Shown here: positions 5,511 through 37,232 of the stretch, one piece after another
How positions within the stretch are numbered: the stretch's first letter is position 1
How the letters are laid out: the number at the start of each line of letters is the position of its first letter
Source: Blastopirellula marina
Lineage (GTDB): Bacteria > Planctomycetota > Planctomycetia > Pirellulales > Thermoguttaceae
Assembly: GCA_020721965.1 (NCBI GenBank)
Contig: DYLS01000020.1
Location: 1 to 51,237 of the forward strand
DNA: 51,237 nucleotides
Direction of reading: 5' to 3'
Program-made: the position numbers and the translations under genes
The notes under the pieces: model-generated
What the model was told of the DNA's origin: nothing
Databases searched by the model: none
The model's input: only the letters and a program-made list of their open reading frames with translations

Positions 5511-7085
5511 ATGCGTTCCCGTTCGCCCACAGTGCCTTTGCGAAGATATCTTCTGGCGGCAATTGATGGGCGCCCCAGGGGACCTCGCCGATCCGCTGTG
5601 GTGACAATCACCGTGTTGTTCGCAGTCATGGCAGCCCTCGCCATCTCATACGCCGCTTCCTATCTGTTGACACGGCGTATGGAGATCGACGGAAACGCCA
5701 TTCTGGCGTTGAAGGCCAGTCTCGCCGCGGAGACCGGCCTGTCGATTGGGATTCAAAAGGCATTCTCTTCCCAATGGCCCGGCGTGGACAGCGTGGTGGC
5801 CGGTGGATGCGGGAAGAATCAATCCTTCGAAGTCCGCTATCTGAGCGGAGACTCGGAGCTGACGCCGGGGAATCCCGACTATGCCCGATTGCCCCTGCGG
5901 ATCACCGTAGTGGCCGTCGGTAAGGCCTGGCGCTCCGGTCAACCCGACTATCCCGCAATCAGCGAGAGACGAGTAACCTTAGAACTCGTACCGCGGGCTC
6001 TATCACCGGAACCCAACGACTGGAACACGATCACGTCGTACACGGTTTATCAAACGGAATCCATCCCCTGCCATTTGAACATCCCCTATCGCTTTGGGGG
6101 CAAGGTCCGCTTTCAATCCGCCCTGTCCTTGGCCGACAGCTACCCCAACGACGCGTCTGCCTGGAATCGCTATTTGGATGATCTTCACAAGATGCGGCTG
6201 GCCGGACTTCCAGATTATCGACCTTTCGAGGGAACGGTCCGACTCCCCTTCACATCGCAGCCGATAGAGACGCTCTATGCGTTGCTGATACTCTTGGGCG
6301 TACCGACTCAACCCCTCGCCAGCACGAGCACCCAGGCCGACCTGGCGATGCAAAGCAACCTGGAACACTACCGCCTGTATCCCGGCGGACCGACCTACTC
6401 GATCCCCACCCTTTCTGGAACCCTGGAGAACATATCCCTGGCTGCGGATCCAGCCTCCAACCCCCTCGGTCTTTTTCTCCGCGACGGCAACCTCACAATC
6501 CTCGACAATGTTGCGTTGCAGGGGAGCCTCTATACCACCGGTGATATTAGTGTGACGGGAAGCAATATCTCGTTTCGGCCCGTTGATCTCGCGTCACCCA
6601 ATCCGGGCGAGGAGCGATTGCGAATTCCAACGCTCAGTGGTCGGAAATTGCATGTGGATACTCTGGGAACATCACGGACGATCTATGGATTAGTCGGCTT
6701 ATTCGGGCATTTTCACGTCCGAGAAAATCCGGATGCCACCGAGTTCGCGGTAAAAGGTAAGATGTTCGCGCCAGAGTTTCGCATCGATCACCGGACGCCG
6801 TGGGGTTGGCAAGATTGGACTATGTTGTGGACCGAGTTTCTCGCTCAATCCGCCACGGCCACAGGCGAGAATCAGTATTTCCCGATCTGGCTGCGGAATA
6901 CCTACGGCCTTGATCCCGCGACTCGCCTGCGTATCGAACCCGAAGGAGACGAAACGGCTACCCGCTATCACTGGATGAAGGCAGAAGAGCCGATTTATGT
7001 ACCTGCCTCAAGAGATATCACCTTGCTAGACCCAACGCCAGCGCTGCGTTGGTCGTTTATACGCTGGGATTCTGCCAGTAAGTAA
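5511..7085 (+). CDS. GspK/PilX-like large pseudopilin
   Basis: A 524-residue protein. The N-terminus has a basic leader (RGPRRSA) followed by VVTITVLFAVMAALAISY, a degenerate prepilin signal like that of GspK and PilX, without the canonical Glu at +5. The large soluble part is longer than typical GspK (about 320 residues) and contains beta-rich stretches such as LRDGNLTILDNVALQGSLYTTGDISVTG. That repetitive strand pattern is reminiscent of a beta-helix and is common in planctomycete prepilin-like proteins. The ATG at 5511 lies 5 bases after the GspJ-like stop; the frame is open further upstream, but that part overlaps the previous gene. The role inferred is the pseudopilus tip. I cannot see a clear metal site. 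Confidence 0.65.
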   Translation: MRSRSPTVPLRRYLLAAIDGRPRGPRRSAVVTITVLFAVMAALAISYAASYLLTRRMEIDGNAILALKASLAAETGLSIGIQKAFSSQWPGVDSVVAGGCGKNQSFEVRYLSGDSELTPGNPDYARLPLRITVVAVGKAWRSGQPDYPAISERRVTLELVPRALSPEPNDWNTITSYTVYQTESIPCHLNIPYRFGGKVRFQSALSLADSYPNDASAWNRYLDDLHKMRLAGLPDYRPFEGTVRLPFTSQPIETLYALLILLGVPTQPLASTSTQADLAMQSNLEHYRLYPGGPTYSIPTLSGTLENISLAADPASNPLGLFLRDGNLTILDNVALQGSLYTTGDISVTGSNISFRPVDLASPNPGEERLRIPTLSGRKLHVDTLGTSRTIYGLVGLFGHFHVRENPDATEFAVKGKMFAPEFRIDHRTPWGWQDWTMLWTEFLAQSATATGENQYFPIWLRNTYGLDPATRLRIEPEGDETATRYHWMKAEEPIYVPASRDITLLDPTPALRWSFIRWDSASK

Positions 7086-7172
7086 ATCTGGACATTCGTC
7101 AGCATGCGCCGCGTGCCAAGACGGCATGGTATTCGTATTCATGCACCGCGGCTCTTCTAAAAGGAGAATAAC

Positions 7173-7481
7173 ATGAGGACATTGCCGATCTTAACGATTC
7201 TATCGATTGCCGTTCTCGCCGCCGTAACAATGCTAGAATTTCCTGGCCAGCGATTCAAGGCGCGGGGCGAGGCCTCCAATCAACCCTTTGCCAACGCCGT
7301 GGAGCAGCGGTTGGAGATCATCGCTCAACTCCGGTCGATTCATGAGACATTGAAGGAACAAAACCGGCTGCTCACGGAACAGAGTAAACTCCTTCGCGAA
7401 CACATGCAAGCGCTGACGCGGCTCGCTCCGGTGCCTGGGCGAGCTGCGGAAAAGAGTAAAGATCATGGCGAGAACCCCTGA
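7173..7481 (+). CDS. Membrane-anchored coiled-coil protein, 102 residues
   Basis: A short protein with one N-terminal hydrophobic segment (residues 4-22, LPILTILSIAVLAAVTMLE), then a helical, Gln/Glu/Leu-rich region (residues 42-80) with heptad spacing suggesting a coiled coil, and a charged tail. No family is recognised. AAAAGGAG sits 6 bases before the ATG. Its 3' end overlaps the next pseudopilin gene by 17 bases, so the two are probably translated together. In this context it could be an inner-membrane scaffold part of the secretion apparatus, by analogy with small coiled-coil platform subunits; that is inference. Confidence 0.65.
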   Translation: MRTLPILTILSIAVLAAVTMLEFPGQRFKARGEASNQPFANAVEQRLEIIAQLRSIHETLKEQNRLLTEQSKLLREHMQALTRLAPVPGRAAEKSKDHGENP

Positions 7482-8076
7482 TACCGCACGTTCAAGGAAA
7501 GGAATGCCACGATGGGCATTTACGCTCATCGAAATCTTACTCGTAATTCTGATTCTGGCTGTAGTTTTGGCGGTGGCCTGGCCTTCCTTCCAACCTACCA
7601 GCCACGAACAACTCCGCGCGGCAGCCGAGATGGTGGCCGCCGAAATATGGCTGGCGCAAAACTTGGCAATCACATTCAACAGCAAGTATCAATTGAGGTT
7701 TGACGTGCCCGGCAACCGCTTCATTTTAAAACATAGCGGGAACAACCCGGCACTGGATCGCCTGCCACCGGATGCGATTGTGGTGAGCAGCGATGATCCG
7801 ACAAGCCGCATCGTGGACCTCGACGACAAGGCTGCTTTGATCGGTCGAGTTCGCCTGGTGGGCGCAGCCACCTACGGCGCTTCGGCGGTACCGGCTGACT
7901 TCCTGGAGTTTGGTCCGACGGGCGCATTGGAAGGCGGTGGGCAGGCCCTGATTTGGCTTTCCAACGACCTGAAACCCTCGCCGCGCTACGTTACCATCAT
8001 CGTCGATGGCGTGACCGGATCGGTTCAAATCGGCCCGGTCGACGCTCTGGGACCACCCAATTGGCTGTTCGAATAG
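7465..8076 (+). CDS. Prepilin-like protein, GspH/FimT type
   Basis: A 203-residue protein with a perfect class III signal core: MPRWA then FTLIEILLVILILAVVLAV, Glu at +5 and a long hydrophobic helix, followed by a GspH-like domain (EMVAAEIWLAQNLAITFNSKYQLRF is the typical second helix leading into the beta sheet). ATG 7465 gives an 18-residue leader. ATG 7504, with AAGG six bases upstream, would give a five-residue leader; both are plausible. It is a minor pseudopilin of the secretion locus, separated from the I-J-K set by the coiled-coil protein. Confidence 0.85.
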   Translation: MARTPDTARSRKGMPRWAFTLIEILLVILILAVVLAVAWPSFQPTSHEQLRAAAEMVAAEIWLAQNLAITFNSKYQLRFDVPGNRFILKHSGNNPALDRLPPDAIVVSSDDPTSRIVDLDDKAALIGRVRLVGAATYGASAVPADFLEFGPTGALEGGGQALIWLSNDLKPSPRYVTIIVDGVTGSVQIGPVDALGPPNWLFE

Positions 8077-8150
8077 TCCACATCCTCACCGACCAAAAAA
8101 AGCCCCTCCGAAATAGAACCAGATAATCAAGCAGACTGGATGGTCAAGCC

Positions 8151-9263
8151 ATGTGGCACTTTTGGAAACACGGCTACAGCCCCATCGGCGTAGATCTCGA
8201 CACTCGCTCGATCAAATTGGTTCAGCTCACAGCCGATGGTCGTACCCTAACTGAGGCAGTACGATCGGATCGAGCCAGCGATTCCGAGACCGAGGATACC
8301 GATGCCGTGGAACAGACTGCCCAGCGGCTTCGGAAAGCCTTATCCAAGGGGCACTTTCACGGTCGGAACGCCGTCTTCTGCATTCCCACTGCCGAGCTGG
8401 TAACGCAGAACGTGCGAGTACCTGACGGGGACCTCGCCGGGCTGAGGAGCCTGGTGGCCGACGAATGCGCAAGGCGGCTGGGGCTGACTCCAGAAACCAT
8501 GGAATTGCGTTACCTGGATGTGGGGACAGTACGTCAGGGAGAATCCGTTCGGCGTGAAGTCATCCTCCTGGGGGCACACAGCGAATCCCCAGAGCGATTG
8601 GCACAAATCGCCACGGCGGCTGGCCTGGAGTTGTGTGGGATCGATGCCGAGCCAATGGCCCTTTTGCGTTGCCGCTTGAGGCAGTTCCGGCGCGAAGAGG
8701 ACCAACTTGAACCGAAGATGTTCGTCACTATTGGGTACCGCATAACACAAATGATGATTGTACGGGATCAGCAACCCTCGTTCCTCAAGAGCGTTCCCGT
8801 AGGTGGCAAAGAGCTTGATGCGGCAGTCTGTCAAAGCCTCCAGCTTCGGCCCGAGGCCGCTCATGCCTTGCGGCGCAATTACGGTGATCGCCGGAAAAGT
8901 CATCGCGATCCTGAGGTCATGCGGAGCGTACAACAGGCGGTTGGTCCGCTTTTAGAACGCCTTGCCGCCGAAATCGGCATGGCCGTGCGTTACTTCAGTG
9001 TGACTTTTCGAGGGGAACCGCCGACAAGGGTTATCGTCGGGGGATCTGAAGCGGACGACTTGATTCGGGATTTTCTGCAACAACGAATCCACGCCACGGT
9101 CGAACTGAGTGATCCAGTTCGGGCGTTCGAGCTACGGTCGCGAGTACCACAGCCCCTGGAGTGGGAAACGGCGATCGGGCTGGCTTTGTTCGGGGTTGGA
9201 GAAAATCCTTGCAGCAGCAAACACGGTGTTTTCACAGAAACCTTGCAGGGCGCGACCCCTTGA
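8151..9263 (+). CDS. pilM: PilM-like actin-fold ATPase of pilus/secretion platform
   Basis: A 370-residue protein with the PilM signature at the N-terminus: SPIGVDLDTRSIKLVQL (phosphate-binding strand of the actin/FtsA fold). Later come FCIPTAELVTQNVRVPDGD, a region of the SHS2 type that is present in PilM, and CGIDAEPMALLRC, plus KMFVTIGYRITQMMIV and RVIVGGSEADDLI for the second nucleotide-binding half. PilM sits on the cytoplasmic face and recruits PilN. Gene order PilM-N-O-P-secretin matches type IV pilus loci, while the neighbours upstream are type II-like pseudopilins. The start ATG at 8151 has no strong ribosome binding site (GGATGGTCAAGCC). Confidence 0.88.
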   Translation: MWHFWKHGYSPIGVDLDTRSIKLVQLTADGRTLTEAVRSDRASDSETEDTDAVEQTAQRLRKALSKGHFHGRNAVFCIPTAELVTQNVRVPDGDLAGLRSLVADECARRLGLTPETMELRYLDVGTVRQGESVRREVILLGAHSESPERLAQIATAAGLELCGIDAEPMALLRCRLRQFRREEDQLEPKMFVTIGYRITQMMIVRDQQPSFLKSVPVGGKELDAAVCQSLQLRPEAAHALRRNYGDRRKSHRDPEVMRSVQQAVGPLLERLAAEIGMAVRYFSVTFRGEPPTRVIVGGSEADDLIRDFLQQRIHATVELSDPVRAFELRSRVPQPLEWETAIGLALFGVGENPCSSKHGVFTETLQGATP

Positions 9264-9316
9264 CCGGCACGATATCGCCCGTCCCGATGCACATCACTTC
9301 GGGCTGAGAGATCACG

Positions 9317-10081
9317 ATGAGTATCTATTCATACGCCGAAAGAGACTTTTTGCCCGCCGCCTATCTCGCCCAACGAAGGCGGCGACGGTCGCTGAAATTG
9401 TCGGTGCTCGCCTCGTTGGCGATCTTGATTGCCGTGATCCTGTTGAGCGGCTATCAATATCGCACGCTGCTGGCGATCCGCGCGCAAGCTGCCCGCCTCT
9501 CCGCCGAATTCATCCGTCGCACTGCCACGGCTCAAAGCCTCGAAGCCGTGACCCGGCAACTCGATGAAAAAGAGGATCGTGCCAACTGGATGGCGAGAGT
9601 AAGCTATCAGATACTGGCTTCCCTCACCCTATTCAACCTCATCACTCTCCTCCCTGATGAAATCGTCTTGGATAACATCGAATGGGAACGCATCCCTCCC
9701 AAGGAGCGACCTCCGGCCCGCCAGGCGTTGAATATGACCTCACAAGAGAACGGCCAAGAGGCTGATCAATCCGCCCTGGAACAACTTAGGCAGGATTTGG
9801 AGGAGGCCGAAATACAAATCACGCTCCACGGTCGGGCGACGAATCTTGGCACTATCCACCAGTATGTGATGGTCCTATCTCAAAGCGGCCGATTCGGCGA
9901 CGTACGACTCGACTCCGTGGAGAATGAAGACGAGCAACAAGGCCATGACGACAATGTCTTTCGAATCTCACTGCGGATGCAAGCCAGCCCTCTAGCCACG
10001 AACAATTCCAGCGAAAAGTCCTCTGCACTGCCCGTAGCTACTATTCCGCAAACATCTCTCAGACACTCCCCTGCCGAATAA
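9317..10081 (+). CDS. pilN: PilN-like inner-membrane platform protein
   Basis: A 254-residue bitopic protein: a short cytoplasmic N-terminus (MSIYSYAERDFLPAAYLAQR) that would bind PilM, a basic stop, then LSVLASLAILIAVILLSGY as the single membrane span (about residues 31-50), a coiled-coil (ALEAVTRQLDEKEDRANWM region) and a C-terminal ferredoxin-like PilN domain. The motif ASLTLFNLITLLPDEIVLDNIEW is typical of PilN. It follows PilM by 53 bases. The C-terminus after about residue 230 is low-complexity and looks non-conserved. Confidence 0.82.
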   Translation: MSIYSYAERDFLPAAYLAQRRRRRSLKLSVLASLAILIAVILLSGYQYRTLLAIRAQAARLSAEFIRRTATAQSLEAVTRQLDEKEDRANWMARVSYQILASLTLFNLITLLPDEIVLDNIEWERIPPKERPPARQALNMTSQENGQEADQSALEQLRQDLEEAEIQITLHGRATNLGTIHQYVMVLSQSGRFGDVRLDSVENEDEQQGHDDNVFRISLRMQASPLATNNSSEKSSALPVATIPQTSLRHSPAE

Positions 10082-10090
10082 AGTAGATTT

Positions 10091-10120
10091 GAATGGAACG
10101 CAAATGAATGGAACGCAAAC
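10091..10120. repeat. 15-bp tandem duplication
   Basis: GAATGGAACGCAAAT is followed directly by GAATGGAACGCAAAC, one mismatch, between the PilN-like and PilO-like genes. It is one of the set of short duplications described in the findings. Confidence 0.9.
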
Positions 10121-10196
10121 GCAGCCCCGGCCGGAGTCCGCGCGGACCCGCTGCTTTGTTCAGAATCCATTTGGCTAGCCTCTATTGGTTAAGAGT

Positions 10197-10742
10197 ATGG
10201 GCAAGCATCTGCCATCGATAAAAAAAAGAGGACTCTTTGTGCTAGCCGCATTGCTGGCGGCTTATGTAGCACTTTGGCTAGTGCCAACAATCCGCGAGAC
10301 AAACGCCACGCGGGACCGTCTTTTCAAACTACAGGGGCAATCAGGCGGCGGATCCACCGTAGACGAAAAGATTCGGTTGGTCACAGCGCATTTGCACGCC
10401 GTCGACGAATTCTTGGCGCCATTTCATACCGATAACTCGCCGGAAGTAGCGCTTTCCGCATTTTTGCGAGATGCGACGCTGGCTGGCGAGCAGGCGGGCA
10501 TCAGCTTTTCTCGACTCGCCCCACGCTCCATGCGCAAAGTGGCTTGGATGACTGTAAACGAGGTCGAATTTGAGTTTTCCGGCAAGACCCAGAATATCCT
10601 CCAATTCCTCCGAACGTTGGAAAACCGTAACCGAAAGGCCGTGGTCAAAACGCTACGGTTGACGCGAGAAACGGACGAAGAGGAGATCACGTGCCAGGCT
10701 GAGTTGATGGTGTTTTCCGATAATTCTGGATATTCCGATTAG
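10197..10742 (+). CDS. pilO: PilO/GspM-like inner-membrane platform protein
   Basis: About 181 residues from ATG 10197 (TTG 10185 would add four). One membrane segment, GLFVLAALLAAYVALWLV, is followed by a coiled-coil linker and a small alpha/beta domain (VEFEFSGKTQNILQFLRTLEN, KTLRLTRE) matching the ferredoxin-like fold of PilO/GspM. The motif FSGKTQNILQFLRTLE is the usual helix of this domain. It is expected to heterodimerise with the PilN-like protein in the periplasm. Identification relies on position and fold pattern more than on sequence identity. Confidence 0.7.
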   Translation: MGKHLPSIKKRGLFVLAALLAAYVALWLVPTIRETNATRDRLFKLQGQSGGGSTVDEKIRLVTAHLHAVDEFLAPFHTDNSPEVALSAFLRDATLAGEQAGISFSRLAPRSMRKVAWMTVNEVEFEFSGKTQNILQFLRTLENRNRKAVVKTLRLTRETDEEEITCQAELMVFSDNSGYSD

Positions 10743-10810
10743 CGAAATCAGGTGAAATTTTCCGATATGAAGATGAGGAGGCCGCCACCAAGCACGGCCT
10801 TGTGTAGCTA

Positions 10811-11557
10811 ATGGCAAAAAAGAAAAATTGGGTAACCGTACTGGTCAAGGAGGCAAGACGCAACCCCGCCAAGGCGGCACTGCTTGCAGCGCTAGCAATT
10901 GTGGCCTGCTACTTGTGGGGGGGACGCATTCTTCATGTGGCCGGGAGCGCGGACGGTTCGCCTGCAACAGCCAGCCTTGCAAATGGGGTGGCTGCGAGCT
11001 CTGCGTCAACGAATGAGGTTGTGGAAACGAGCGTTGGTCAGGTCAATCCCATGATGCCCGAAGCAAACGCCAGCAGGATTGGCCAGGATGCATCGACGAG
11101 GAAGCCGATTTGGATCCGATTCCAAGAGTGGTCATCTCAGCAACAGGGCCAGGATGCGATTACGACCTCATTATGGCGAGATCCGTTCCAGGCCCCGGTC
11201 GCTCCTCCGTCGATAACCGCCTCTCAAGAACCGCCCGAAGCGACCGCGCAGGTTGATGTAGACCAGACTGTACGCCCCGACGACTTGGGCCTCCAATTGC
11301 GAGCCGTGATCGCGGGGCCGCGTTGTCGTCTCGCCATTTTGGGGGAACAGGTAGTCGGCGAAGGCGAGCAAATCGTTTTGCATCACAAAGGGCACGCCAT
11401 CACCATTCGCATCGCGAAGATTGGTAAGGATAACATGTCGATCATCATCGGCCAGGAAGCGTACGAATTGCGGCTCCCCCCCGTCACGGACATCGATGCT
11501 CCTCGTGCTGATACCACGGCGACGCAATCGCGGGACCAATTCAGCGACCGGCTTTAA
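10811..11557 (+). CDS. PilP/GspC-like periplasmic linker protein
   Basis: A 248-residue protein with a basic N-terminus (MAKKKNWVTVLVKEARR), a membrane span (AALLAALAIVACYLWGG), a low-complexity periplasmic linker and a C-terminal small beta domain: LGLQLRAVIAGPRCRLAIL, GEQVVGEGEQIV, then ITIRIAKIGKDNMSIII. This is the homology-region fold shared by GspC and PilP, which touches the secretin N0 domain. Unlike PilP of Pseudomonas it has no lipobox and is membrane-anchored like GspC. It precedes the secretin by 62 bases, as expected for a PilP/GspC role. Confidence 0.7.
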   Translation: MAKKKNWVTVLVKEARRNPAKAALLAALAIVACYLWGGRILHVAGSADGSPATASLANGVAASSASTNEVVETSVGQVNPMMPEANASRIGQDASTRKPIWIRFQEWSSQQQGQDAITTSLWRDPFQAPVAPPSITASQEPPEATAQVDVDQTVRPDDLGLQLRAVIAGPRCRLAILGEQVVGEGEQIVLHHKGHAITIRIAKIGKDNMSIIIGQEAYELRLPPVTDIDAPRADTTATQSRDQFSDRL

Positions 11558-11619
11558 CGATTTGGCAACGGTGGGAATCCTTACGATGGGGCAGGAGGAT
11601 ATCCCGGTCAAGGACGACC

Positions 11620-13938
11620 ATGAAAGCTCTACTCCCAATCATTAGTATGGCGGTCTTCGTCGCGGCGGGTGTCGCCTTGGCTGCCTGGTTATCTTTCGGG
11701 AAGGCGCCGCTGCCCTTTGGCCTATCAGGCTCCGCGATTCCCGATTCGATCCTTGGCCCGGCCGAGGCACCCAGCAACCGGACGCAAGCCAGCTCATCCC
11801 TCGGCTCTGCCCGCCAGCCCCTGGACCGACTCTCCGCCTCACCATCACGGGGCCTCACGACGGAGCAAAACGCGGCAATTGATTATCAGGCCGATGATTA
11901 TCAGGCCAACGCGGCTATCCACCAGAAACGGCCCCCTGGCCACCCAGCGAGCTTGAACCTTCCCGGCGTTGCTTCAGTCCCAGCCCGTGGCCTCAACGTT
12001 GTGGGAAAGCCGAGCGGTCCGTCCCCGACAAGTATCGCGGACTCCATGTCCCCGCCAAGTGGAAATGCTCGCTCGTCCGCGGAGCTCTCGGCAGCACGCA
12101 TCGCAGCAACGCATCGGTCCCCCAACCTTGCCGCAGGCACGGTAGCCCCGGCCGAGTGGGCGAGCACGAAGGCTCAAGGCTCCCTCGTCGTTCCTTGCGA
12201 TACGTCGTTTGGTGCTTCGGCCGACATGGGTGGCAAGGTGGAGGTCGCATCGCTCCAGGAGGAGCTGCCCCCGCCAAAAGCATCGTCTCTCCCGTCGCCA
12301 GTCGGATCCGCACAAATCGAAGTCCCGCAAAACGATGGCCTGGTCCTGCAATTCCGGGAAACGGACCTCCGCGACGCCTTGCACGCCTTGGCTCGACAAC
12401 TGAACCTCAACGTGCTGATGTCGAACAATGTGCAAGGCAAGGTCACAGCCTCGCTGAACGGATTGTCTCCGGAAGACGCCCTGTCCGCCGTCGTCGCGGC
12501 TCATGGCTTGGCCCTTCACCGCCAAGGAGACCTCGTCTATGTGGGAACACCCGCCGACATCCAGACCATGTTGCAGACCAAGGACGTGATCACCACACGC
12601 GTTTACCGACCCAATTACGTGACGGCGAAAGAAATCAAAACGCTCGTGGAGCCGCTGTTGACGCCGGAAATCGGCAAGGTCACGTTGTCCACGGCGGCCG
12701 AGGTCGGTATTGCCCCCGATCCAACCCAGGCGGGCGGAAACGCCTTCGCCGGCGTGGATATCGTTCTGGTGCGTGATTACGAGACCGTTCTCAAACAGGT
12801 GGGTCGCATCGTGGCAGAGGTCGACGTCCGTCCCGCGCAGGTCGCCATCGAGGCCATGATCGTCAGCGTGAATCTGGACGACAAGGACCAATTCGGTGTC
12901 AGCTTCGAGTTATTGCGGAACAAGGGGCACATTCGGCTCGGCTGGGGATTTCCTCCCACCGACCTGGACCAGATCGCTTTCGACAGTGGTCTCAAGGTCG
13001 CCTACCTGGACGCCAGCGTTTCCAGCTTCATCACGGCCTTGGAATCGATCGGAGATACCAACGTCATCGCCAGCCCGCGTCTGTTGGTGCTAAACAAGCA
13101 CCGCGCGGAAATCTTGATCGGTAAGGAATTGGGGTATGTCAGCACTACGATTACAGAAACAAGCGCCTCGCAAACCGTGGACTTTTTGAAGGTGGGTGCT
13201 CAGCTCATCATTCGGCCCTTCATCTCGAATGACGGTTTGATCCGCATGGAGGTGCATCCCGAACTTTCCACCGGATCGGTACAGATTACCAACAACTTTA
13301 CGGTTCCCAACAAAGATACGACCCAGGTCACGACCAATATCATGGTCCCCGACGGGGCTACGGTCATCATCGGCGGGTTGATGCGAGAAGACCTTCAGAC
13401 GAGTAGTTCGCAGCTCCCCTTTCTGGGGAATCTGCCGCTCGTCGGTGCGGTATTCCGAAACAAAACCGAAACGACGGGAAAGCAAGAGATCATCGTGCTG
13501 ATTACGCCGCACATCATGGGCGACTATCCGTTGGCGATGGAAGGCAGCCGCAGCGCCATGCAAAATCTGAGGCGGCAAGAAACCTACGCGGACACCATGA
13601 GCCCGCTCGGCAAACGATCCGCCGCGCGTCATTACCTACAACGTGCACGAGAGGCTGCCGCCGCCGGAAGAGTCCTCATTGCGATGCGTTTCGCCAATCT
13701 TGCTGTACGATTCGACCCGACCAATCTCGAAGCCATTGCGTTTCGCGACTCGCTACGGGGTGTCTGTCCACCCGACGCAGTGGAAGCAGCGATCCCACTC
13801 TCTTCTGCCGAGTTGGATCGCGAAGAACTGTCGCCCGAGCTTCTGGATGCGTTGGAAGCGACACCCCCAACAGGGTCCATGCCTCCGCCGCCGCCACCCG
13901 CCCGCGATGATTCTGCCGAGGAGGTTCCCCACTCGTGA
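11620..13938 (+). CDS. Secretin (GspD/PilQ family outer-membrane pore)
   Basis: A 772-residue protein. Residues 1-27 form an N-terminal hydrophobic signal; about residues 30-240 are low-complexity Ser/Pro/Ala. An N0/STN-type domain follows (VLQFRETDLRDALHALARQ, LSPEDALSAVVAAHGL), then an N1/NolW-like domain (TRVYRPNYVTAKEIKTLV), then the secretin beta barrel: NVIASPRLLVLNKHRAEI, VGAQLIIRPFISNDG, VPDGATVIIGGLMRED and LPFLGNLPLVGAVFRN. After the barrel there is an unusual tail of about 120 residues with a TPR-like helix pair (YLQRAREAAAAGRVLIAMRF) and a polyproline run. An in-frame 15-bp duplication (11881-11910, DYQAD/DYQAN) lies in the linker. The stop overlaps the TPR lipoprotein start. Confidence 0.92.
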   Translation: MKALLPIISMAVFVAAGVALAAWLSFGKAPLPFGLSGSAIPDSILGPAEAPSNRTQASSSLGSARQPLDRLSASPSRGLTTEQNAAIDYQADDYQANAAIHQKRPPGHPASLNLPGVASVPARGLNVVGKPSGPSPTSIADSMSPPSGNARSSAELSAARIAATHRSPNLAAGTVAPAEWASTKAQGSLVVPCDTSFGASADMGGKVEVASLQEELPPPKASSLPSPVGSAQIEVPQNDGLVLQFRETDLRDALHALARQLNLNVLMSNNVQGKVTASLNGLSPEDALSAVVAAHGLALHRQGDLVYVGTPADIQTMLQTKDVITTRVYRPNYVTAKEIKTLVEPLLTPEIGKVTLSTAAEVGIAPDPTQAGGNAFAGVDIVLVRDYETVLKQVGRIVAEVDVRPAQVAIEAMIVSVNLDDKDQFGVSFELLRNKGHIRLGWGFPPTDLDQIAFDSGLKVAYLDASVSSFITALESIGDTNVIASPRLLVLNKHRAEILIGKELGYVSTTITETSASQTVDFLKVGAQLIIRPFISNDGLIRMEVHPELSTGSVQITNNFTVPNKDTTQVTTNIMVPDGATVIIGGLMREDLQTSSSQLPFLGNLPLVGAVFRNKTETTGKQEIIVLITPHIMGDYPLAMEGSRSAMQNLRRQETYADTMSPLGKRSAARHYLQRAREAAAAGRVLIAMRFANLAVRFDPTNLEAIAFRDSLRGVCPPDAVEAAIPLSSAELDREELSPELLDALEATPPTGSMPPPPPPARDDSAEEVPHS
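11881..11910. repeat. 15-bp in-frame tandem duplication in the secretin linker
   Basis: GATTATCAGGCCGAT is followed by GATTATCAGGCCAAC, giving DYQAD then DYQAN in the disordered N-terminal linker. Confidence 0.9.
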
Positions 13939-14708
13939 CGCGTGCCGCTCTGTCGCCACATCGAGGACACCGCTTCGCCCAACCCGCTGGGTTAGCGACG
14001 GCTTGCGCGCTATGCGTGCTGCTCGGCTGCCAGACAACGGCATCGCGGATCGAAAACCCTCGCATTACCCATGAATCGCCCACTTCTCTCACCGATATCC
14101 GTGCTTTGCGTCAAGAACGCCGTGAGCAAGTACGTCAAGATATACAGCAGGCGTACGGGCAAGCCGTATTGGCCCAAGCCGAAAGCCCCCCTTTCACTGC
14201 CAGAAATGATTCCACTGCCGACCGCAGTACTATCGTAAGGGCATCAGCCGAATTCACCTTCAGCGAATCCAACGATGACCGGCCGCCGGACGACCCCGCC
14301 GCATGGGAGAAAGCCCTTGCCGAAGCCATCGCAGAGGTTGCCGCCGGCGACGAACCAGCGGGCTTGGTGCGACTCCAAGATTTAATCGAACGGCATGACC
14401 GTGCCCCCATGGTGGTCCATGCCGCAGCTATCCGATTGTTGCGTATCAACCGTGCGGATTTGATCGTGGAAAGGCTTATGCCGGTTATTCAAGATTTGCC
14501 GGCAGACGCGCGTCTCTATCAGGTGCTCGGCCTGGCCTTGTACCGAACAAAGCGATACCCGGAGGCAGAAACTGTTCTGCTCAAGTCCTTGGAATTGGAC
14601 AACTCCCTCGCTCTAACCTACCTTTTCTTGGGGAGTACTGCGGAAAAGCTGCAAAAGCCGCAAGATGCGAGACGCTATTTCGAGAAGGCATCGAAACTCG
14701 GCCTTTGA
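13935..14708 (+). CDS. TPR lipoprotein, pilotin-like
   Basis: A 257-residue protein with a GTG start that overlaps the secretin stop in a four-base GTGA arrangement. The signal ends with the lipobox LLGC (Cys at about residue 32), so a lipid-anchored envelope protein is predicted. The C-terminal half has at least two TPR units: LYQVLGLALYRTKRYPEAET and LALTYLFLGSTAEKLQKPQ. Outer-membrane TPR lipoproteins such as PilF/PilW assist secretin assembly, and translational coupling to the secretin supports a similar job here; that assignment is inference. The central region is acidic and not recognised. Confidence 0.8.
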   Translation: MTRAALSPHRGHRFAQPAGLATACALCVLLGCQTTASRIENPRITHESPTSLTDIRALRQERREQVRQDIQQAYGQAVLAQAESPPFTARNDSTADRSTIVRASAEFTFSESNDDRPPDDPAAWEKALAEAIAEVAAGDEPAGLVRLQDLIERHDRAPMVVHAAAIRLLRINRADLIVERLMPVIQDLPADARLYQVLGLALYRTKRYPEAETVLLKSLELDNSLALTYLFLGSTAEKLQKPQDARRYFEKASKLGL

Positions 14709-14954
14709 AGGGATGGTGTCTCCAACGCTCAGGTAGTGGCTGCCTTGCGGTCAAACCGAGGGCGGCCCAGGCCCCCCTCGCTGGCGGTCGGCGGTTCGCC
14801 TCCTTCACGTGAGCAGAATGGAAGGACCGGCCGTGACGGCACGCTTCGTGGCGCATCCGCCGCGACTCGCGGCAGTTTTCTCGGTCGGAAACACCCCCGC
14901 AAGCGAAATCCTTTGGAGTTGTGATCTAAAAGGGAATAGAAGGACGTCGTCCCT

Positions 14955-16436
14955 ATGTCGGCTATCGAGGGAGCATCACGGTTGCTGCACCACGCGTTAC
15001 CCGTTCGGGATGCCATAGAGGCCCTACCCGTGGCTCAGTTCCCGAACCTCGGGATGGGGTGGCTGATCGTGTTGATGTCGGCGATCCTCCCGACGGCAAT
15101 CGTTGCGGCGGTCATGTACACCTACATGCGCCGTCGCGACCAGCGGTTTCTTACGCAGCTCGAAGATCTTGCCCAGACAGCACTAACGTCCGCTGATCAC
15201 TGGGAAAGTGCGGCCGGGCTAACAATCCCCAAGCCGTTTGCCGCGGTCTTGGAACCGCTTTTCCACCGCGTTTCGGCAACCGCAGAGCAGATCGCAGCAT
15301 CGGAGCAACTTCAGACGGCCTCGGAAATCAAGAACCGGCGATTGATCGCGGAGGTAGCTCGGCTCAAAGCCGTGATCGATTGGCTTCCCGATCCGATCTT
15401 GATTTGCGACGCGGCGGAGAATCTCAGCTTCGCCAACAGCGCTGCCCGAACCCTCTTCGCAATGGATTCCGACACTGTGGAAACGCATGCTTTGGGTACG
15501 CTGATGCGGGCACAATCGCTGTGGGAACTGCTCTCCACAATGCTTCGTCGTCAGAGTACTTCGGGACAATGCGCCACGTGGGAGGGCGAATGGCCCGATG
15601 GCACGCGTCGCCGCTATCAGATTCACGTCTATCACGCCACGCCGCAGTCGGAAGGTACAGCCCCTGTTGGCGACAAATCCATCACCGTTATCGTGTTTCG
15701 CGACACGGCGGCATTGGACGATCTGCGCCGGCGTCACGCCGAATTCGTTTCGTCCGTCAGCCATGAGATGAAAACGCCGCTGGCCGCGATTCGAGCGTAC
15801 GTGGAACTGCTCGTGGACGGTGACGCCAGTGACGAGCAGACACGCGACGAATTTCTCGCGATCATCGACTCGCAAACAACACGCCTCCAGAGATTGATCG
15901 AGAACCTGCTCAATTTGGCCCGAATCGAAGCTGGGATCATCAAAGTGAATAAAGAGCCGCGGTCGCTCAACGAACTCTTGCAAGAGGCAGCCAGCGTGGT
16001 AGAACCGCAGGCCACAATGAAACGCATCGAACTGCGTCAAGAGTTGAGTCCGCTTTACTTGCCCGTGCTGGCCGACAAGGACCTGCTTTTGCAAGCGGCG
16101 ATCAACCTGCTCTCCAACGCTGTGAAATACACGCCCGAGGGAGGCACGGTAACGCTGCGAAGCCGCCTCGCTGACGAGGGAGTGATCTTTGAGGTTGCCG
16201 ACACGGGCGTCGGTCTCTCGCCCGAGGACTGTGAGCGTATCTTCGAACGCTTCTATCGCGTGGAAAAGAACAAGGAGATGGCTCCCGGCACGGGGCTGGG
16301 ACTGCCCTTGGCCAAGCATATCGTGGAGGACGTTCATCGCGGCAAACTGAGTGTGACCAGCCGGTTAGGCGAGGGGAGCACATTCCGTGTCTTGCTGCCG
16401 CGCGCATCGCAACAGACCGTGGGAGCTGCAAGCTGA
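14955..16436 (+). CDS. Membrane sensor histidine kinase (PhoR-like)
   Basis: A 493-residue kinase. A hydrophobic segment (about residues 34-58, MGWLIVLMSAILPTAIVAAV) anchors it; a helical linker leads to a PAS-like domain (VIDWLPDPILICDAAENLSF). The phosphoacceptor region is FVSSVSHEMKTPLAAIRAYV, with His at about residue 270. Downstream boxes are intact: AAINLLSNAVKYTPEGG (N), EVADTGVGLS (G1), FERFYRV (F) and GTGLGLPLAKHIVED (G2). There is only a tiny periplasmic part, so the signal is probably cytoplasmic or membrane-derived. The receiver gene follows after 26 bases. Position inside the secretion locus suggests it controls, or is controlled by, that machine. Confidence 0.92.
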   Translation: MSAIEGASRLLHHALPVRDAIEALPVAQFPNLGMGWLIVLMSAILPTAIVAAVMYTYMRRRDQRFLTQLEDLAQTALTSADHWESAAGLTIPKPFAAVLEPLFHRVSATAEQIAASEQLQTASEIKNRRLIAEVARLKAVIDWLPDPILICDAAENLSFANSAARTLFAMDSDTVETHALGTLMRAQSLWELLSTMLRRQSTSGQCATWEGEWPDGTRRRYQIHVYHATPQSEGTAPVGDKSITVIVFRDTAALDDLRRRHAEFVSSVSHEMKTPLAAIRAYVELLVDGDASDEQTRDEFLAIIDSQTTRLQRLIENLLNLARIEAGIIKVNKEPRSLNELLQEAASVVEPQATMKRIELRQELSPLYLPVLADKDLLLQAAINLLSNAVKYTPEGGTVTLRSRLADEGVIFEVADTGVGLSPEDCERIFERFYRVEKNKEMAPGTGLGLPLAKHIVEDVHRGKLSVTSRLGEGSTFRVLLPRASQQTVGAAS

Positions 16437-16462
16437 TACCGAAGCCAGTTCAGGAAAAGGTC

Positions 16463-16861
16463 ATGGATTTGCAAAAGACGATACTTCTTTGCGACGACGA
16501 ACCAGCCATTTTGAAGGCCGCGGAGTTCAAGTTGTGTAGCGCAGGTCTCCGCGTGCTGACTGCCAACGACGGAGAGGCAGCTTGGGAGATCGTCTGCCGC
16601 GATTACCCCGACCTGGTCATCAGCGACTGCCAAATGCCGCGTTTGGACGGCATCGGGCTGCTGCGACGGCTTCGCGGCGACGCGCGATTTGCCGCCCTGC
16701 CCGTCATCTTGCTCACAGCCAAAGGCTTTGAACTGGACAAATCGCAACTACAAGATGAGCTGAACGTCATGGATGTCCTGCCAAAGCCCTTCAGCCCACG
16801 CGAGATTTTGGCGCGGGCCACGGCGATCCTCGAAAAACAGGCCCTATCCCAACAACAATAA
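16463..16861 (+). CDS. Stand-alone response regulator receiver protein
   Basis: A 132-residue CheY-like protein without an output domain. The acidic pocket (CDDE, residues 10-13), phospho-acceptor Asp55 in LVISDCQMPRLDG, the LLTAKG threonine and the LPKPFSP lysine are all present. It is almost certainly phosphorylated by the histidine kinase 26 bases upstream. With no DNA-binding domain it must act by binding a protein. The nearest candidates are the STAS protein and the GspE-like ATPase encoded next; that is inference. Confidence 0.93.
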   Translation: MDLQKTILLCDDEPAILKAAEFKLCSAGLRVLTANDGEAAWEIVCRDYPDLVISDCQMPRLDGIGLLRRLRGDARFAALPVILLTAKGFELDKSQLQDELNVMDVLPKPFSPREILARATAILEKQALSQQQ

Positions 16862-16945
16862 CAACCGTTGCCAAGACGGCGGCCGTCGCGGAGGCGATGG
16901 ACGCATTGGGCCACGGAATCAAGTCCAACGTCCGAGGCAACAACG

Positions 16946-17281
16946 ATGAATATCCAAACCGAGGTTTTTGGCGATGTCTTGGTCGTGCACACCCCTGAGG
17001 AATTCAACGAGGAGACCGCCGATGCGGTCCAAAAGTGCATCGAGGGTCTGGGGTACAACCGCGTCGTCGCCGATTTGGATGGGACGGAAAGCATCGACAG
17101 TCAGGGGCTGACAATGCTTCTCAGCCTCCACGAGCTTATGCAGGCTCGTGGGGGAGATCTGAAAATCGCTACGACCAACACCGTCAATCGCAAAATCCTG
17201 GAAATCACGCGGCTGGACCGAGACCTAGAGATTTTCTCCGGCCTTGTGGATGCCGTGAAAAGCTATCGGCCGAGCTTATAG
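16946..17281 (+). CDS. STAS-domain protein, anti-sigma factor antagonist type
   Basis: A 111-residue single STAS domain. The sequence VVADLDGTESIDSQGLTML matches the SpoIIAA/RsbV family; Ser52 in DSQG is at the position phosphorylated by RsbW-type kinases. Next comes LMQARGGDLKIATTNTVNRK, also typical. ATG 16946 is chosen because the domain begins at MNIQTEVFG; the upstream open frame is non-homologous. It lies 84 bases after the receiver gene and 67 before the GspE-like ATPase. No anti-sigma kinase or sigma factor is adjacent, so its partner is encoded elsewhere; a receiver-HATPase fusion at 37233 is one candidate. Confidence 0.9.
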   Translation: MNIQTEVFGDVLVVHTPEEFNEETADAVQKCIEGLGYNRVVADLDGTESIDSQGLTMLLSLHELMQARGGDLKIATTNTVNRKILEITRLDRDLEIFSGLVDAVKSYRPSL

Positions 17282-17348
17282 AAAGGCGCCTGCCTCTGCT
17301 TCAACCCGCGAGCGTGGACGGTAACCTGAATCTTCGAGGCGAAAACGG

Positions 17349-19124
17349 ATGCATTCGGAATCGGCCTTCTTCCCCGTGTCGAAGTCTGCGGATGCGGTGG
17401 CCCCGCGTCGTCGGCTGGGCGACCTGTTGGTGGACCGCGGCTACTTGCGGGAGGAGCAACTCCGCGAAGCCTTGGAGAAGCAGCATCAGACCGGAAGGAC
17501 CAAGCTCCTGGGTGAAATCCTCGTGGAGCTGGGATTCTGTTCGGAAGAGCAGGTCGCGGAATGCCTGGCGGAAGAATATGGCCTGCCTTTCGCACGCTTG
17601 GAGCCGCGTCTTTTCGATCCCAAGATCGTGGACGTTTTACCTCGCGAGTACATCGAGAACAATTTGGTCCTGCCTCTGTTTCAAGTCCGCGAAACGCTGA
17701 CCGTGGCGGTGGCTGAACCCTCCAATCTCTTTTTGATTCAGGAGATCGAATCGCTGACGAAGCTGCGGGTGCAACCGGTCGTCTCGACCGTGCGGGACAT
17801 CCGACGGATGATCGGTTCTCTCCCGAATTCTGCCGTATTCGTCATCGAAGACATCATCGAAGATTCGGAAAACGCCGATGTCACTTTGATCGAAGAAGCG
17901 ATAGAGGACATTGGAGACGTGGCGGATGTAGCCGGGCAATCTCCTGTCATTCGCCTCGTCAACTACATCATCTACAACGCGGTAAAGGAAGGGGCCAGCG
18001 ACATCCACATCGAACCGGCCGAACGCTGCGTGCGGATTCGCTACCGAGTAGACGGGCGATTGTACAAGGCCCTGGAAGTGCCGGCGCATCTCATCAACGC
18101 CATCACCAGCCGCATCAAAATCATGGCCTCGCTCGACATCAGCGAACGCCGCCTACCGCAAGATGGCCGCGTCAACGTCCTCTTGGATAGCCGCAAGATC
18201 GATTTGCGTGTCAACACCTTCCCTTCGCAGCGCGGGGAAAAAACGGTGATTCGCGTTCTGGACACCCGCCTTGTGTCCCTCAATCTCGAAGACCTCGGTT
18301 TCGCTCAGGACATCTTGACCCCTCTCAAAGCGCTCATCAAGGCACCAAATGGCATTGTGTTGGCGACCGGTCCCACGGGCAGCGGCAAGTCGACCACGTT
18401 ATATGGCTGCCTGAATGCCATTTCGACCATGGAAACAAACATTTGCACGGTGGAAGATCCCGTCGAATATCACTTGCCCCTGGTGAATCAGTTCCAGGTA
18501 CAGGAACGGATTGGCCTGACTTTCTCCAAGGCCCTGCGGACGCTGTTGCGTCAAGACCCCGACGTGATCATGGTTGGCGAGATTCGCGACGAAGAGACCG
18601 CGCGGACAGCGATTCAGGCGGCGCTGACGGGTCATTTGGTATTCAGCACGCTGCACACCAACGATGCCGCGTCCGCCATCACGCGCCTGGCAAACATGGG
18701 GATCGAAACGTACTTGATCGCTGCTGCGCTCAACGCCGTTTTGGCCCAACGATTGGTGCGACGCATCTGCCCCAAATGCAGGCACCCCTACGAGCCACCC
18801 CGTCCCTTGCAAAAGGCCTTGCAAAGGATGGGTTATCAGGCCGACACATTCTTCAAAGGCGTTGGCTGCCGTCACTGCCGCAATACGGGTTACCGCGGCC
18901 GCGTGGGCATCCACGAATTGTTGATCCTCGATGATGAAATTCGCGACATGATCGTGGCCGGCGCCAGCGCCCATCAAGTTCGAAAAATCGCCGAATCGCG
19001 AGGAATGGTCAATCTAAGACAGGACGGCTTCAGAAAAGTCCAGGAGGGGCTAACCACCGTGGAGGAAGTATTGCACGCTGTCGGACACGTCGGCGATTGG
19101 GCCAGTTTGACCAGCCTGGAGTGA
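17349..19124 (+). CDS. GspE/PilB-type secretion/pilus assembly ATPase
   Basis: A 591-residue AAA+-like traffic ATPase. Two N-terminal GspE_N/MshE-type modules are visible (RLGDLLVDRGYLREEQLREA and LGEILVELGFCSEEQVAECL), which in some relatives bind c-di-GMP; whether the ligand residues are conserved here I cannot judge. The core has Walker A GPTGSGKSTTLYG (about residue 340), the Asp box region VEDPVEYHL, Walker B DPDVIMVGEIRDEETA and the His box TGHLVFSTLHTNDA. A four-cysteine metal site is intact (CPKC at about 473, CRHC at about 507). The stop lies inside a 28-bp tandem duplication. It powers pseudopilus or pilus polymerisation. Confidence 0.95.
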   Translation: MHSESAFFPVSKSADAVAPRRRLGDLLVDRGYLREEQLREALEKQHQTGRTKLLGEILVELGFCSEEQVAECLAEEYGLPFARLEPRLFDPKIVDVLPREYIENNLVLPLFQVRETLTVAVAEPSNLFLIQEIESLTKLRVQPVVSTVRDIRRMIGSLPNSAVFVIEDIIEDSENADVTLIEEAIEDIGDVADVAGQSPVIRLVNYIIYNAVKEGASDIHIEPAERCVRIRYRVDGRLYKALEVPAHLINAITSRIKIMASLDISERRLPQDGRVNVLLDSRKIDLRVNTFPSQRGEKTVIRVLDTRLVSLNLEDLGFAQDILTPLKALIKAPNGIVLATGPTGSGKSTTLYGCLNAISTMETNICTVEDPVEYHLPLVNQFQVQERIGLTFSKALRTLLRQDPDVIMVGEIRDEETARTAIQAALTGHLVFSTLHTNDAASAITRLANMGIETYLIAAALNAVLAQRLVRRICPKCRHPYEPPRPLQKALQRMGYQADTFFKGVGCRHCRNTGYRGRVGIHELLILDDEIRDMIVAGASAHQVRKIAESRGMVNLRQDGFRKVQEGLTTVEEVLHAVGHVGDWASLTSLE

Positions 19125-19159
19125 ATGGCGAAGTTTAACCAACCTGGAGTGAACCGGAA
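19104..19159. repeat. 28-bp tandem duplication across the GspE-like stop codon
   Basis: The unit starting AGTTTGACCAGCCTGGAGTG at 19104 repeats at 19132 as AGTTTAACCAACCTGGAGTG. The first copy holds the stop codon. The 211 bases before the next gene hold nothing else I recognise; a 64-residue plus-strand frame there (19125-19319) is not convincing. Confidence 0.85.
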
Positions 19160-19335
19160 GAGACACGCAACCCGAACAAATCCATCTCGCGAAACGATGC
19201 GGCCGGATGCATTCGTTCCGGCGCTGTCCCGCAGATCTGCCCCCGCTCGAATCAGCTCCCGGCGTCGGGCCGCATTTGGTCCGGAAGACGGCGTGACGAG
19301 CACACAACCGCAAGCCTGATTCGGAATATCCGACC

Positions 19336-20541
19336 ATGTCCGTCGCTTTTACATACCGCGCAAAGTCGCCATTGGGAAAGATCATCGAAGGCTCCATACA
19401 GGGTGAGTCGGAAGCCGAGGTCGTCGCGCGGTTGAAGCGGGACGGGCTACTGCCATTGGAGGTGCAGGCCGAGGAAGAAGAGGAAAGCGAAGGAATTTCG
19501 CTCTTTCGTCGGGTACGCCGCAGTGAGCTGATCTACGCGACGAATCAATTGGCTATTTTGACCGAGGCTGGCATCTCGCTGGCCCCGGCTCTGGCGGCCG
19601 CGATCGAAGAAGAACGTAATAGCCACTTGAAAAGCATCCTGGAAGAGGTCAAGACAAGAGTCGAAGGGGGCGAGGACCTTTCCGCAGCCCTGGCTCGCCA
19701 TGACGATGTCTTCGATCAAGTCTATGTGGCACTGGTGAGAGCCGGTGAGAAGACGGGTGCCTTGGGAGAGATGCTGGTACGCGTCGCGGCAAGCCTGCAA
19801 GCCGAACACGAGACTCGCGGGAAAATCCGGGCAGCCATGATCTATCCCTGCGTGATGCTGGCTGTGGCCATCGGCGTCACGATTTTCCTGCTCACCTTTG
19901 TGCTGCCGAAATTTGTGCCGGTTTTTGAGACCCGTCACATGGAGTTGCCCACGATCACCAAGGTCGTCCTGCGCGTCTCCGATGTTGTAACGCACAATTA
20001 TCCGTATCTCTTGGGGGCGGTGGGGGCCTTTGTGGCGACCTGGTGGGCACTCAAGCAGAGTGAGGCAGGGCGGGCTGGGCTGGACCGCCTTCGACTTGCA
20101 CTCCCCGTCATCGGCGCCATCTACCGAAAAATCATCCTTTGCCGCTGCGTCCGCATCCTAGGCACCATGCTGGGAGCAGGCGTACCGCTGTTGGAGGCAG
20201 TGGAATTGACGGGGGACGCCGCCGCCAACAGCCTTCACAAGCAGGCTTGGGAAGCGGTGAAACGCGATTTGGTCGAGGGGAAGAGCCTTGGCGACGCGAT
20301 GCGCCGGCAGAATGTGTTCCCCCGCATTCTGATACAAATGGTCGCCGCTGGTGAAGCCACCGGGAAACTGGACCAAGTGCTTGTCAAAATGGCCACCTTT
20401 TACGACCGCGAGCTGGAAACCGCCGTGAAAACGGCTGTCAGCCTGATTGAACCGGCGATGATCATCGTCATGGGCGGCGTGGTAGGGACGATAGGGCTTG
20501 CCCTGTTACTCCCTATCTTCAGTCTCAGTCGCCCGGGCTGA
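19336..20541 (+). CDS. GspF/PilC-type inner-membrane platform protein
   Basis: A 401-residue polytopic protein with two T2SSF domains. The first shows YATNQLAILTEAGISLAPAL and later VYVALVRAGEKTGAL. A membrane segment (YPCVMLAVAIGVTIFLLTFVL) and a second one (YPYLLGAVGAFVATWWAL) follow. The second domain shows CVRILGTMLGAGVPLLEAVE and LIQMVAAGEATGKLDQVL, and a last membrane segment is near the C-terminus. Length and order are standard. It closes the plus-strand secretion locus; the next gene is convergent. Confidence 0.95.
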   Translation: MSVAFTYRAKSPLGKIIEGSIQGESEAEVVARLKRDGLLPLEVQAEEEEESEGISLFRRVRRSELIYATNQLAILTEAGISLAPALAAAIEEERNSHLKSILEEVKTRVEGGEDLSAALARHDDVFDQVYVALVRAGEKTGALGEMLVRVAASLQAEHETRGKIRAAMIYPCVMLAVAIGVTIFLLTFVLPKFVPVFETRHMELPTITKVVLRVSDVVTHNYPYLLGAVGAFVATWWALKQSEAGRAGLDRLRLALPVIGAIYRKIILCRCVRILGTMLGAGVPLLEAVELTGDAAANSLHKQAWEAVKRDLVEGKSLGDAMRRQNVFPRILIQMVAAGEATGKLDQVLVKMATFYDRELETAVKTAVSLIEPAMIIVMGGVVGTIGLALLLPIFSLSRPG

Positions 20542-20801
20542 AATCGCTGGTCTTCCATCATCGCGGATCCGTTCACGGGTGGAGCAATGCGGGAAAACGC
20601 GGAGTTGTGGCAAGCCGCGTGGCAATAGCGATCTGCTCGTAACCGCCCATGGCTTAGCACCACGAGACGTTGTGGTCGACGCGGCGCGACGCCCCCCAAT
20701 GTTTCGTGACCGGTTATCCCTCATTGCATGATGGGTGCCGGTCCAGCCCGAAACGTCCGCCGGAGGCTATAACCGTAACCGTTCACGGGGGGTGTTCGCT
20801 C

Positions 20802-20942
20802 GCAGGGATTCTCCTCACTGCACAACGGCTTGCCCTCCTATCTTCGCCCTACTGTCTTCGCCCTACTGTCATTTTGAGCGAAGCGAGAAATCTTCTCGGC
20901 AGGGGATGAAGGTTTCTCCTCGCTGACGCTCGTCGAAATGAA
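20802..20942. repeat. R3 repeat, copy 1
   Basis: GATTCTCCTCACTGCACAAC and, further on, GTCATTTTGAGCGAAGCGAG are both found again at 51176-51236 in nearly the same words. The right half (TTTCTCCTCGCTGACGCTCG then TCGAAATGA) is an imperfect reverse complement of TCATTTTGAGCGAAGCGAGA, so the unit can fold into a long hairpin. Strings of the type CGAGCGAAGCGAGAAATCT are known as dispersed repeats in unrelated bacteria. Confidence 0.75.
20841..20868. repeat. 14-bp perfect tandem duplication
   Basis: TCTTCGCCCTACTG occurs twice in direct succession inside the R3 element; the copy at the right window edge lacks this insertion. Confidence 0.92.
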
Positions 20943-20969
20943 ACCATTGGTGCCGGTGCCAGCACAGCC

Positions 20970-21755
20970 CTAGAACCAAGCTGCCGTAAAACCACCATCT
21001 ACGTAAAAGGCAGATCCGGTGATGTAACTGCCTGCCGTGGGTGAAAGCAAGAGCAGGGCGGCACCGACCAGCTCGCGCGGTTCACCGAAGCGATGCATGG
21101 GAGTCCCGTCGATGATATTTCGCACGCGTTCTTCGTCCAACAGCCGTCGATTCTGCTCGGCGGGGAAGAAACCTGGGCAAATCGCGTTCACTCGAATCCC
21201 CTTGTCGCCGAACTCTTGGGCGATATTCTTGGTCAGATTCACCACACCGGCTTTGGAAGCGGCGTAGGCGAAGACCCGGGACAGCGGCAAGTGCGACGTC
21301 ACGGATCCAATGTTCAGGATGGCCCCGCCGCCCGCCGTCAGCATGTGCTTGATGAATACCTGACAGGCCTCAAACACCCCTTTGAGATTGACAGCCATGA
21401 TCTTATCCCAAAGGCGGGGATCTGCATCCAAAAACGAAGTCCCAGCGTTGATTCCCGCGCAATTCACGAGGATTTCCACACGCCCCTTCACCTTGAGGGC
21501 CTCTTCCAGCAGACGCTCCAGGGATCCGCGATTCGTAACGTCCACCAAGGCATAGCTGACCCGATCGCCGAACTTTTGCAGGATATCGACCCGCCGCTTG
21601 CACGCTTCCTCGCCGACGTCGGCGACAACGACATGGGCACCGGCTCGCAAAATCCCCTCACACAGCGCACCGCCCAGCTCGCCTGCTCCGCCGATCACCA
21701 CGGCGACCTGACCTTCCAGGTTGAAAAGCTCATACAGATACTCTTTGCTCGTCAT
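20970..21755 (-). CDS. SDR-family NAD(P)-dependent oxidoreductase
   Basis: A 261-residue classical short-chain dehydrogenase. The nucleotide loop is VVIGGAGELGGAL, with Gly where most relatives have Thr (TGxxxGxG). The NCAGIN strand, catalytic Ser in LNIGSVTSHLPLS, and the YAASK Tyr/Lys pair are intact; the C-terminal YITGSAFYVDGGFT is typical. Overall pattern resembles gluconate/mannonate-type sugar acid dehydrogenases, but the substrate is not determined. It lies 45 bases after gnd on the same strand, so a role in sugar-acid metabolism feeding 6-phosphogluconate is a reasonable inference. Confidence 0.88.
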   Translation of the reverse strand: MTSKEYLYELFNLEGQVAVVIGGAGELGGALCEGILRAGAHVVVADVGEEACKRRVDILQKFGDRVSYALVDVTNRGSLERLLEEALKVKGRVEILVNCAGINAGTSFLDADPRLWDKIMAVNLKGVFEACQVFIKHMLTAGGGAILNIGSVTSHLPLSRVFAYAASKAGVVNLTKNIAQEFGDKGIRVNAICPGFFPAEQNRRLLDEERVRNIIDGTPMHRFGEPRELVGAALLLLSPTAGSYITGSAFYVDGGFTAAWF

Positions 21756-37081: not shown

Positions 37082-37232
37082 CGCGGGAACAATTTGTCGT
37101 TCGCTTGAGCAATCGGCGGTTCCAAGCAGAGCTTTTGTGCCACACGGCTCGTGAAAGGACCGCGTTTTCCACGCGATCACACCCGTGAACGGTGACAAAA
37201 CGGCCGATGATCTTGCGAGGAGGTATCAAGCC

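Follow-up and report, generated by a model that had tools for sequence, protein, structure and literature searches.

The window, a stretch of 51,237 nucleotides of Blastopirellula marina (contig DYLS01000020.1), carries a secretion/pilus assembly locus whose genes are listed in Table 1. Genes for a histidine kinase, a receiver and a STAS protein lie in this order between the genes for the secretin and TPR lipoprotein and that for the GspE ATPase; the genes are real and their order is as given in an earlier note on this DNA, which had proposed that they form a phosphorelay feeding a STAS partner switch. As that note had also claimed, DNA-binding domains are absent from all three products, none being detected by Pfam.

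Table 1. Features of the secretion/pilus locus, with coordinates in the window.
Feature	Coordinates	Strand	Basis
PilM	8151-9263	+	Pfam PilM_2
PilN	9317-10081	+	Pfam PilN
PilO-like	10185-10742	+	Gene order alone; no significant Pfam match
PilP-like	10811-11557	+	Gene order alone; no significant Pfam match
Secretin GspD/PilQ	11620-13938	+	Pfam
TPR protein with lipobox-like VLLGC, possible pilotin	13935-14708	+	Pfam TPR; sequence; overlaps secretin stop
Gap of 246 nt before HK	14709-14954	+	Gene spacing
PAS-HisKA-HATPase_c histidine kinase (HK), predicted membrane-anchored, first cassette gene	14955-16436	+	Pfam
Single-domain receiver (REC), CheY-like	16463-16861	+	Pfam
STAS-domain-only protein, 111 aa	16946-17281	+	Pfam; start set by relatives
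GspE/PilB-type assembly ATPase, N-terminal MshEN (GSPII) domain	17349-19124	+	Pfam
GspF/PilC platform protein	19336-20541	+	Pfam; follows GspE in relatives too

Based on its lipobox-like sequence, the TPR protein is a plausible pilotin. The spacing upstream of HK makes it likely that an HK-REC-STAS-GspE-GspF sub-operon begins there. Transcriptional linkage of the cassette was judged from gene spacing, which gives no sign that the three genes are transcribed separately from the secretion genes. A promoter and terminator scan of the locus gave no signals above those of shuffled sequence, a terminator-like stem at 14859-14873 being given no weight, and zero Rfam matches (c-di-GMP riboswitch or other RNA) were obtained in positions 7000-21000.

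The histidine kinase contains PAS, HisKA (7.9e-20) and HATPase_c (2.7e-27) domains and a single strong hydrophobic segment near its N-terminus (residues 36-54); no periplasmic sensor domain is visible in its sequence. REC consists of a Response_reg domain (Pfam, 4.7e-23) after which the protein ends, and its description in the earlier note as a receiver without output domain was borne out, no further sequence domain being found behind it. The residues expected of a two-component pair, namely the HisKA histidine with N and G boxes and the receiver acid pocket, phospho-acceptor Asp and Lys, are present. Among 98 aligned loci the phospho-acceptor His is invariant (98/98) and the N and G boxes are conserved, while the acid-pocket Asp, the phospho-acceptor Asp and the Lys of REC are each found in 98/98.

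The start of the STAS gene was assigned to ATG 16946 because the relatives (107-116 aa) begin at the equivalent ATG; the listed open reading frame, starting at TTG 16868, is over-extended at its 5' end. The product matches Pfam STAS (2e-12), and its AF2 model has the STAS fold (pLDDT 93.6) with TM1081 and SpoIIAA as the nearest solved folds (Foldseek). In a profile alignment Ser52 corresponds to the phospho-Ser58 of SpoIIAA, so that in fold and serine position this is an RsbV/SpoIIAA-type, STAS-only protein with a phosphorylatable-type serine. The serine is kept in 97/98 aligned loci. Helix 2 of the model begins at this residue, which may therefore be conserved for structural reasons. Judged by residue conservation, HK, REC and STAS all look functional. 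The closest named relative by STAS is a Thermogutta sp. MAG (82% identical).

The conservation of this arrangement was investigated in 60 relatives, in which clade A was defined as orthologous GspE at >600 bits. STAS lies directly upstream of clade-A GspE in 27/27 genomes, whereas other GspE/PilB-type genes adjoin a STAS gene in only 8/123 cases listed. Two of the remaining relatives have STAS at a contig edge and 31 have neither STAS nor clade-A GspE; co-occurrence of the two gave a Fisher P of 5e-15, relatedness being ignored. The GspE paralogues of the source genome, on contigs C98 and C107, have no cassette. In a wider sample of the order, STAS was found in 72/346 genomes. Of 72 order-level loci that were read, 64 have the order HK-REC-STAS-GspE; six others are cut off by the end of a contig, and L120 and L133 have no HK directly upstream. 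These counts refer to related genomes and not to independent events. The arrangement is far from chance, and the synteny in relatives on which the earlier note had made its proposal depend was found in the relatives and the order and also across the phylum.

The phylum search was carried out with STAS over 392 genomes and with a second profile, in Planctomycetota only; L158, L161 and L164 were left out as STAS matches with no GspE nearby. STAS was found directly upstream of GspE on the same strand at 113 loci across the phylum, a few genomes contributing two paralogous loci. Loci of other families and classes have a GspE at 54-65% identity, and most loci in other classes carry a gene for an HD-GYP or GGDEF enzyme between REC and STAS. 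This additional gene is TM-GAF-GGDEF in L147, L148, L151 and L152 (none in the related L149 and L150) and GAF-HD-GYP in L153-L157, L159, L160, L162, L163 and many of L171-L189, while L188 has both enzymes (HK-REC-HD-GYP-GGDEF). The enzymes carry GG(D/E)EF or HHExxDGxGYP motifs; a PP2C phosphatase was considered for the extra gene and rejected on this identification. An adjoining HK or REC is absent in a minority of loci. REC is the only input in L173 (secretin-TPR-REC-STAS-GspE), L133 and L120, and L184 reads secretin-TPR-HD-GYP-STAS-GspE with neither HK nor REC.

In 25/113 loci GspE has a possible start codon that would overlap the stop of STAS (-4/-1), consistent with coupled synthesis of the two proteins; in 63 further loci of the 113 a possible start lies within 60 nt. 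In a second GspE clade (clade B, about 47% identical) the order is REC-HK-STAS-GspE. Clade B is monophyletic in both the STAS and the GspE tree (support 0.94 and 0.999; distance r = 0.93), as expected of co-inherited partners, although shared ancestry of neighbouring genes would give the same agreement. In the clade-B-like loci L174, L186, L077, L078, L082 and L083 a divergent HD-GYP gene, sometimes with REC, was observed beside HK-STAS-GspE, so that the link to c-di-GMP recurs in the second clade.

GspE of the window was identified as a GspE/PilB-type assembly ATPase by its matches to T2SSE (2.9e-138) and MshEN (1.9e-18), and its N-domain matches those of MshE, PilB and PilF in the PDB. The c-di-GMP site described for MshEN is a pair of 24-residue motifs in tandem that contain R and Q (Wang 2016; PMC5013675). 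The first motif is intact in the window protein and the second is degenerate (R to L, Q lost), and the tandem motif occurs in 1/104 clade-A-type GspE. Canonical c-di-GMP binding by the window GspE failed this motif test, and binding is considered doubtful because the second half-motif is degenerate. The altered half-motif (residues about 53-76; LLGEILV..C[ST]E[DE]Q..ECLA) is itself strongly conserved, which suggests a new role rather than decay.

These results bear on the possibility that the main output of the cassette is a local pool of c-di-GMP that acts on the GspE MshEN domain, with STAS and REC only tuning the cyclase or phosphodiesterase. The motif-bearing HD-GYP and GGDEF enzymes of other-class cassettes, the resemblance of the N-domain to those of MshE, PilB and PilF, four GGDEF proteins in the source genome and the precedent of the STAS protein HsbA, which binds the diguanylate cyclase HsbD in dependence on Ser56 (PMC5085249), would all fit such a gate. 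The near absence of the tandem motif from clade-A-type GspE and the lack of any HD-GYP or GGDEF enzyme in the window cassette speak against it, and it is regarded as improbable.

In a textbook partner switch the STAS protein works with a serine kinase and with a phosphatase. Neither an RsbW-like kinase nor a PP2C enzyme was recognised in the cassettes inspected, a part of whose ORFs was scanned with Pfam, and no sigma or anti-sigma gene was seen in the cassette or locus. The source genome has HATPase_c_2 proteins, and two SpoIIE phosphatase genes on other contigs. A protein joining a receiver to an RsbW-like HATPase_c_2 domain is encoded at 37185-38153 (+), about 20 kb from the cassette, and is a candidate serine kinase; together with a paralogue at G000:C107:38857-39762 it gives the two strongest HATPase_c_2 matches of the genome. 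The gene at 37185-38153 is present in 16/29 cassette genomes vs 11/31 others (P = 0.19). The product of 37185-38153 was rejected as the STAS kinase on this non-significant co-occurrence, and since the gene is not co-inherited it is not an obligate partner. With neither kinase nor PP2C found in the cassette, the strict STAS antagonist and partner switch of the earlier note is unsupported. It would survive in a transcriptional form if STAS antagonised an unlinked RsbW-like anti-sigma kinase, HK and REC feeding STAS and secretion-gene expression being controlled. The SpoIIAA/RsbV-type fold, the retained phospho-Ser and the HATPase_c_2 and SpoIIE proteins of the genome agree with that scheme, but no sigma, anti-sigma or PP2C gene was seen in the cassette, which has no DNA-binding domain, its candidate kinase is not co-inherited, and its linkage is to GspE and not to a regulator. 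We attach a low probability to it. At L161 (6527-7702, reverse complement) an unrelated STAS gene and a REC-PP2C-like gene, with no GspE, resemble a classical partner switch.

In four loci (L034, L035, L036, L069) the secretin gene gspD is inverted or lies beyond the fetched sequence and HK-REC-STAS-GspE-GspF is intact. That the cassette stays with GspE-GspF when the secretin is displaced favours action on the machine, as the earlier note had proposed, rather than on its transcription; the trio is tied to GspE and not to the secretin, and direct contact of STAS with GspE is inferred. We lean towards post-translational control of a dedicated secretion/pilus machine with STAS as the output facing GspE. 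HK-REC-STAS would then supply one such machine with both its signal input and its switch. The membrane-anchored HK would sense a signal, probably cytosolic and through PAS, and would phosphorylate the lone REC, a step proposed because the catalytic residues are intact. The signal would end at STAS as an adaptor on GspE, acting most likely at the N-terminal MshEN-type domain and altering either the ATPase activity or the docking of GspE to GspF. The STAS-GspE pair is constant and the genes upstream of it vary, as would be expected with STAS as the output towards the ATPase and with HK/REC and c-di-GMP enzymes as inputs. Since most other-class cassettes carry HD-GYP or GGDEF, the ancestral cassette probably joined a STAS switch to local c-di-GMP turnover, of which the Pirellulales form would be the reduced HK-REC-STAS version. 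A coevolution analysis by mean-field DCA (98 concatenated loci, Neff 76) lacked power: its signal was unusable, and even the HK-REC positive control was not separated.

HK and REC might instead act directly on GspE/GspF or on their localisation in a CheY-like manner, STAS being a non-switching structural or stability factor for GspE. In favour of this, a lone receiver adjoins in nearly all loci, STAS stands beside GspE even where HK and REC are missing (L184), and in Xanthomonas the N-domain of PilB may be made more stable by PilZ (PMC11656802). The retention of STAS where HK is absent (L120, L133, L173) and of the phospho-acceptor Ser in nearly every locus, a residue that a passive chaperone could do without, make this quite improbable. 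The preferred reading, STAS as GspE-facing output, can be extended to the phylum: STAS would be a dedicated switchable adaptor of GspE/PilB, doing the job of PilZ in proteobacteria, with interchangeable HK-REC, HD-GYP and GGDEF inputs and with an MshEN half-site given up for STAS docking. This extension is put forward tentatively, as a possibility that we do not expect to hold in full.

Several known systems are comparable, and among them each proposed step has a precedent. In Xanthomonas and Pseudomonas, PdeK-PdeR-FimX-PilZ act on PilB, and PilZ binds the PilB N-terminal domain (PMC11656802); common ground is the use of a kinase, a protein of receiver type, turnover of c-di-GMP and a small adaptor on the N-domain of a pilus ATPase, whereas the planctomycete cassette would have STAS in the adaptor position, has a receiver with no enzymatic output and gathers all genes with GspE in one operon-like cassette. 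In HptB-HsbR-HsbA-HsbD of Pseudomonas aeruginosa a two-component signal likewise reaches a STAS-type protein that can be phosphorylated and that binds a diguanylate cyclase (PMC5085249), but HsbR has its own kinase and phosphatase activities, none of which is fused in the planctomycete cassette, and the endpoint there is FlgM and motility/biofilm while the partner gene here is GspE. BtrU-BtrV-BtrW, a STAS-based switch reported to act on Bordetella type III secretion after transcription (PMC8256260), is a full set of Rsb homologues, unlike the planctomycete cassette, which shows no serine kinase or phosphatase. The Bacillus RsbV/RsbW/RsbU and SpoIIAA/AB/E systems share the STAS fold and phospho-Ser position, but in the planctomycete cassette a cognate kinase, phosphatase and sigma factor are missing and the linkage is to an assembly ATPase. 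The cassette GspE has an MshEN (GSPII) N-domain and ATPase homologous to those of MshE, PilB and PilF, and differs from them across its family in the degenerate second half-motif.

The components are of known kinds, and the STAS-GspE-linked design may be undescribed; no description of a STAS-GspE/PilB cassette, or of planctomycete T2SS/T4P regulation of such design, was found in the open-licence literature, which is weak evidence of novelty. Post-assembly switching of secretion and T4P motors has few models, all proteobacterial and working via PilZ, FimX and c-di-GMP, and few secretion systems of Planctomycetota are characterised. If the preferred reading is true, the cassette would be a separate solution to motor switching and would give STAS proteins a further role outside the control of sigma factors. 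It supplies concrete protein pairs for testing and a handle on the regulation of envelope machines in Planctomycetota.

Further ATPase genes were observed. In the Planctomycetaceae-type loci L147, L148 and L152 the genes for GspE and GspF are separated by a second, partial GspE-like open reading frame (about 350 aa). Two GspE/PilB-type ATPase genes with no STAS cassette are located close together in the source genome (G000:C98:4059-9067, L084), and close pairs of such genes also occur in many relatives.
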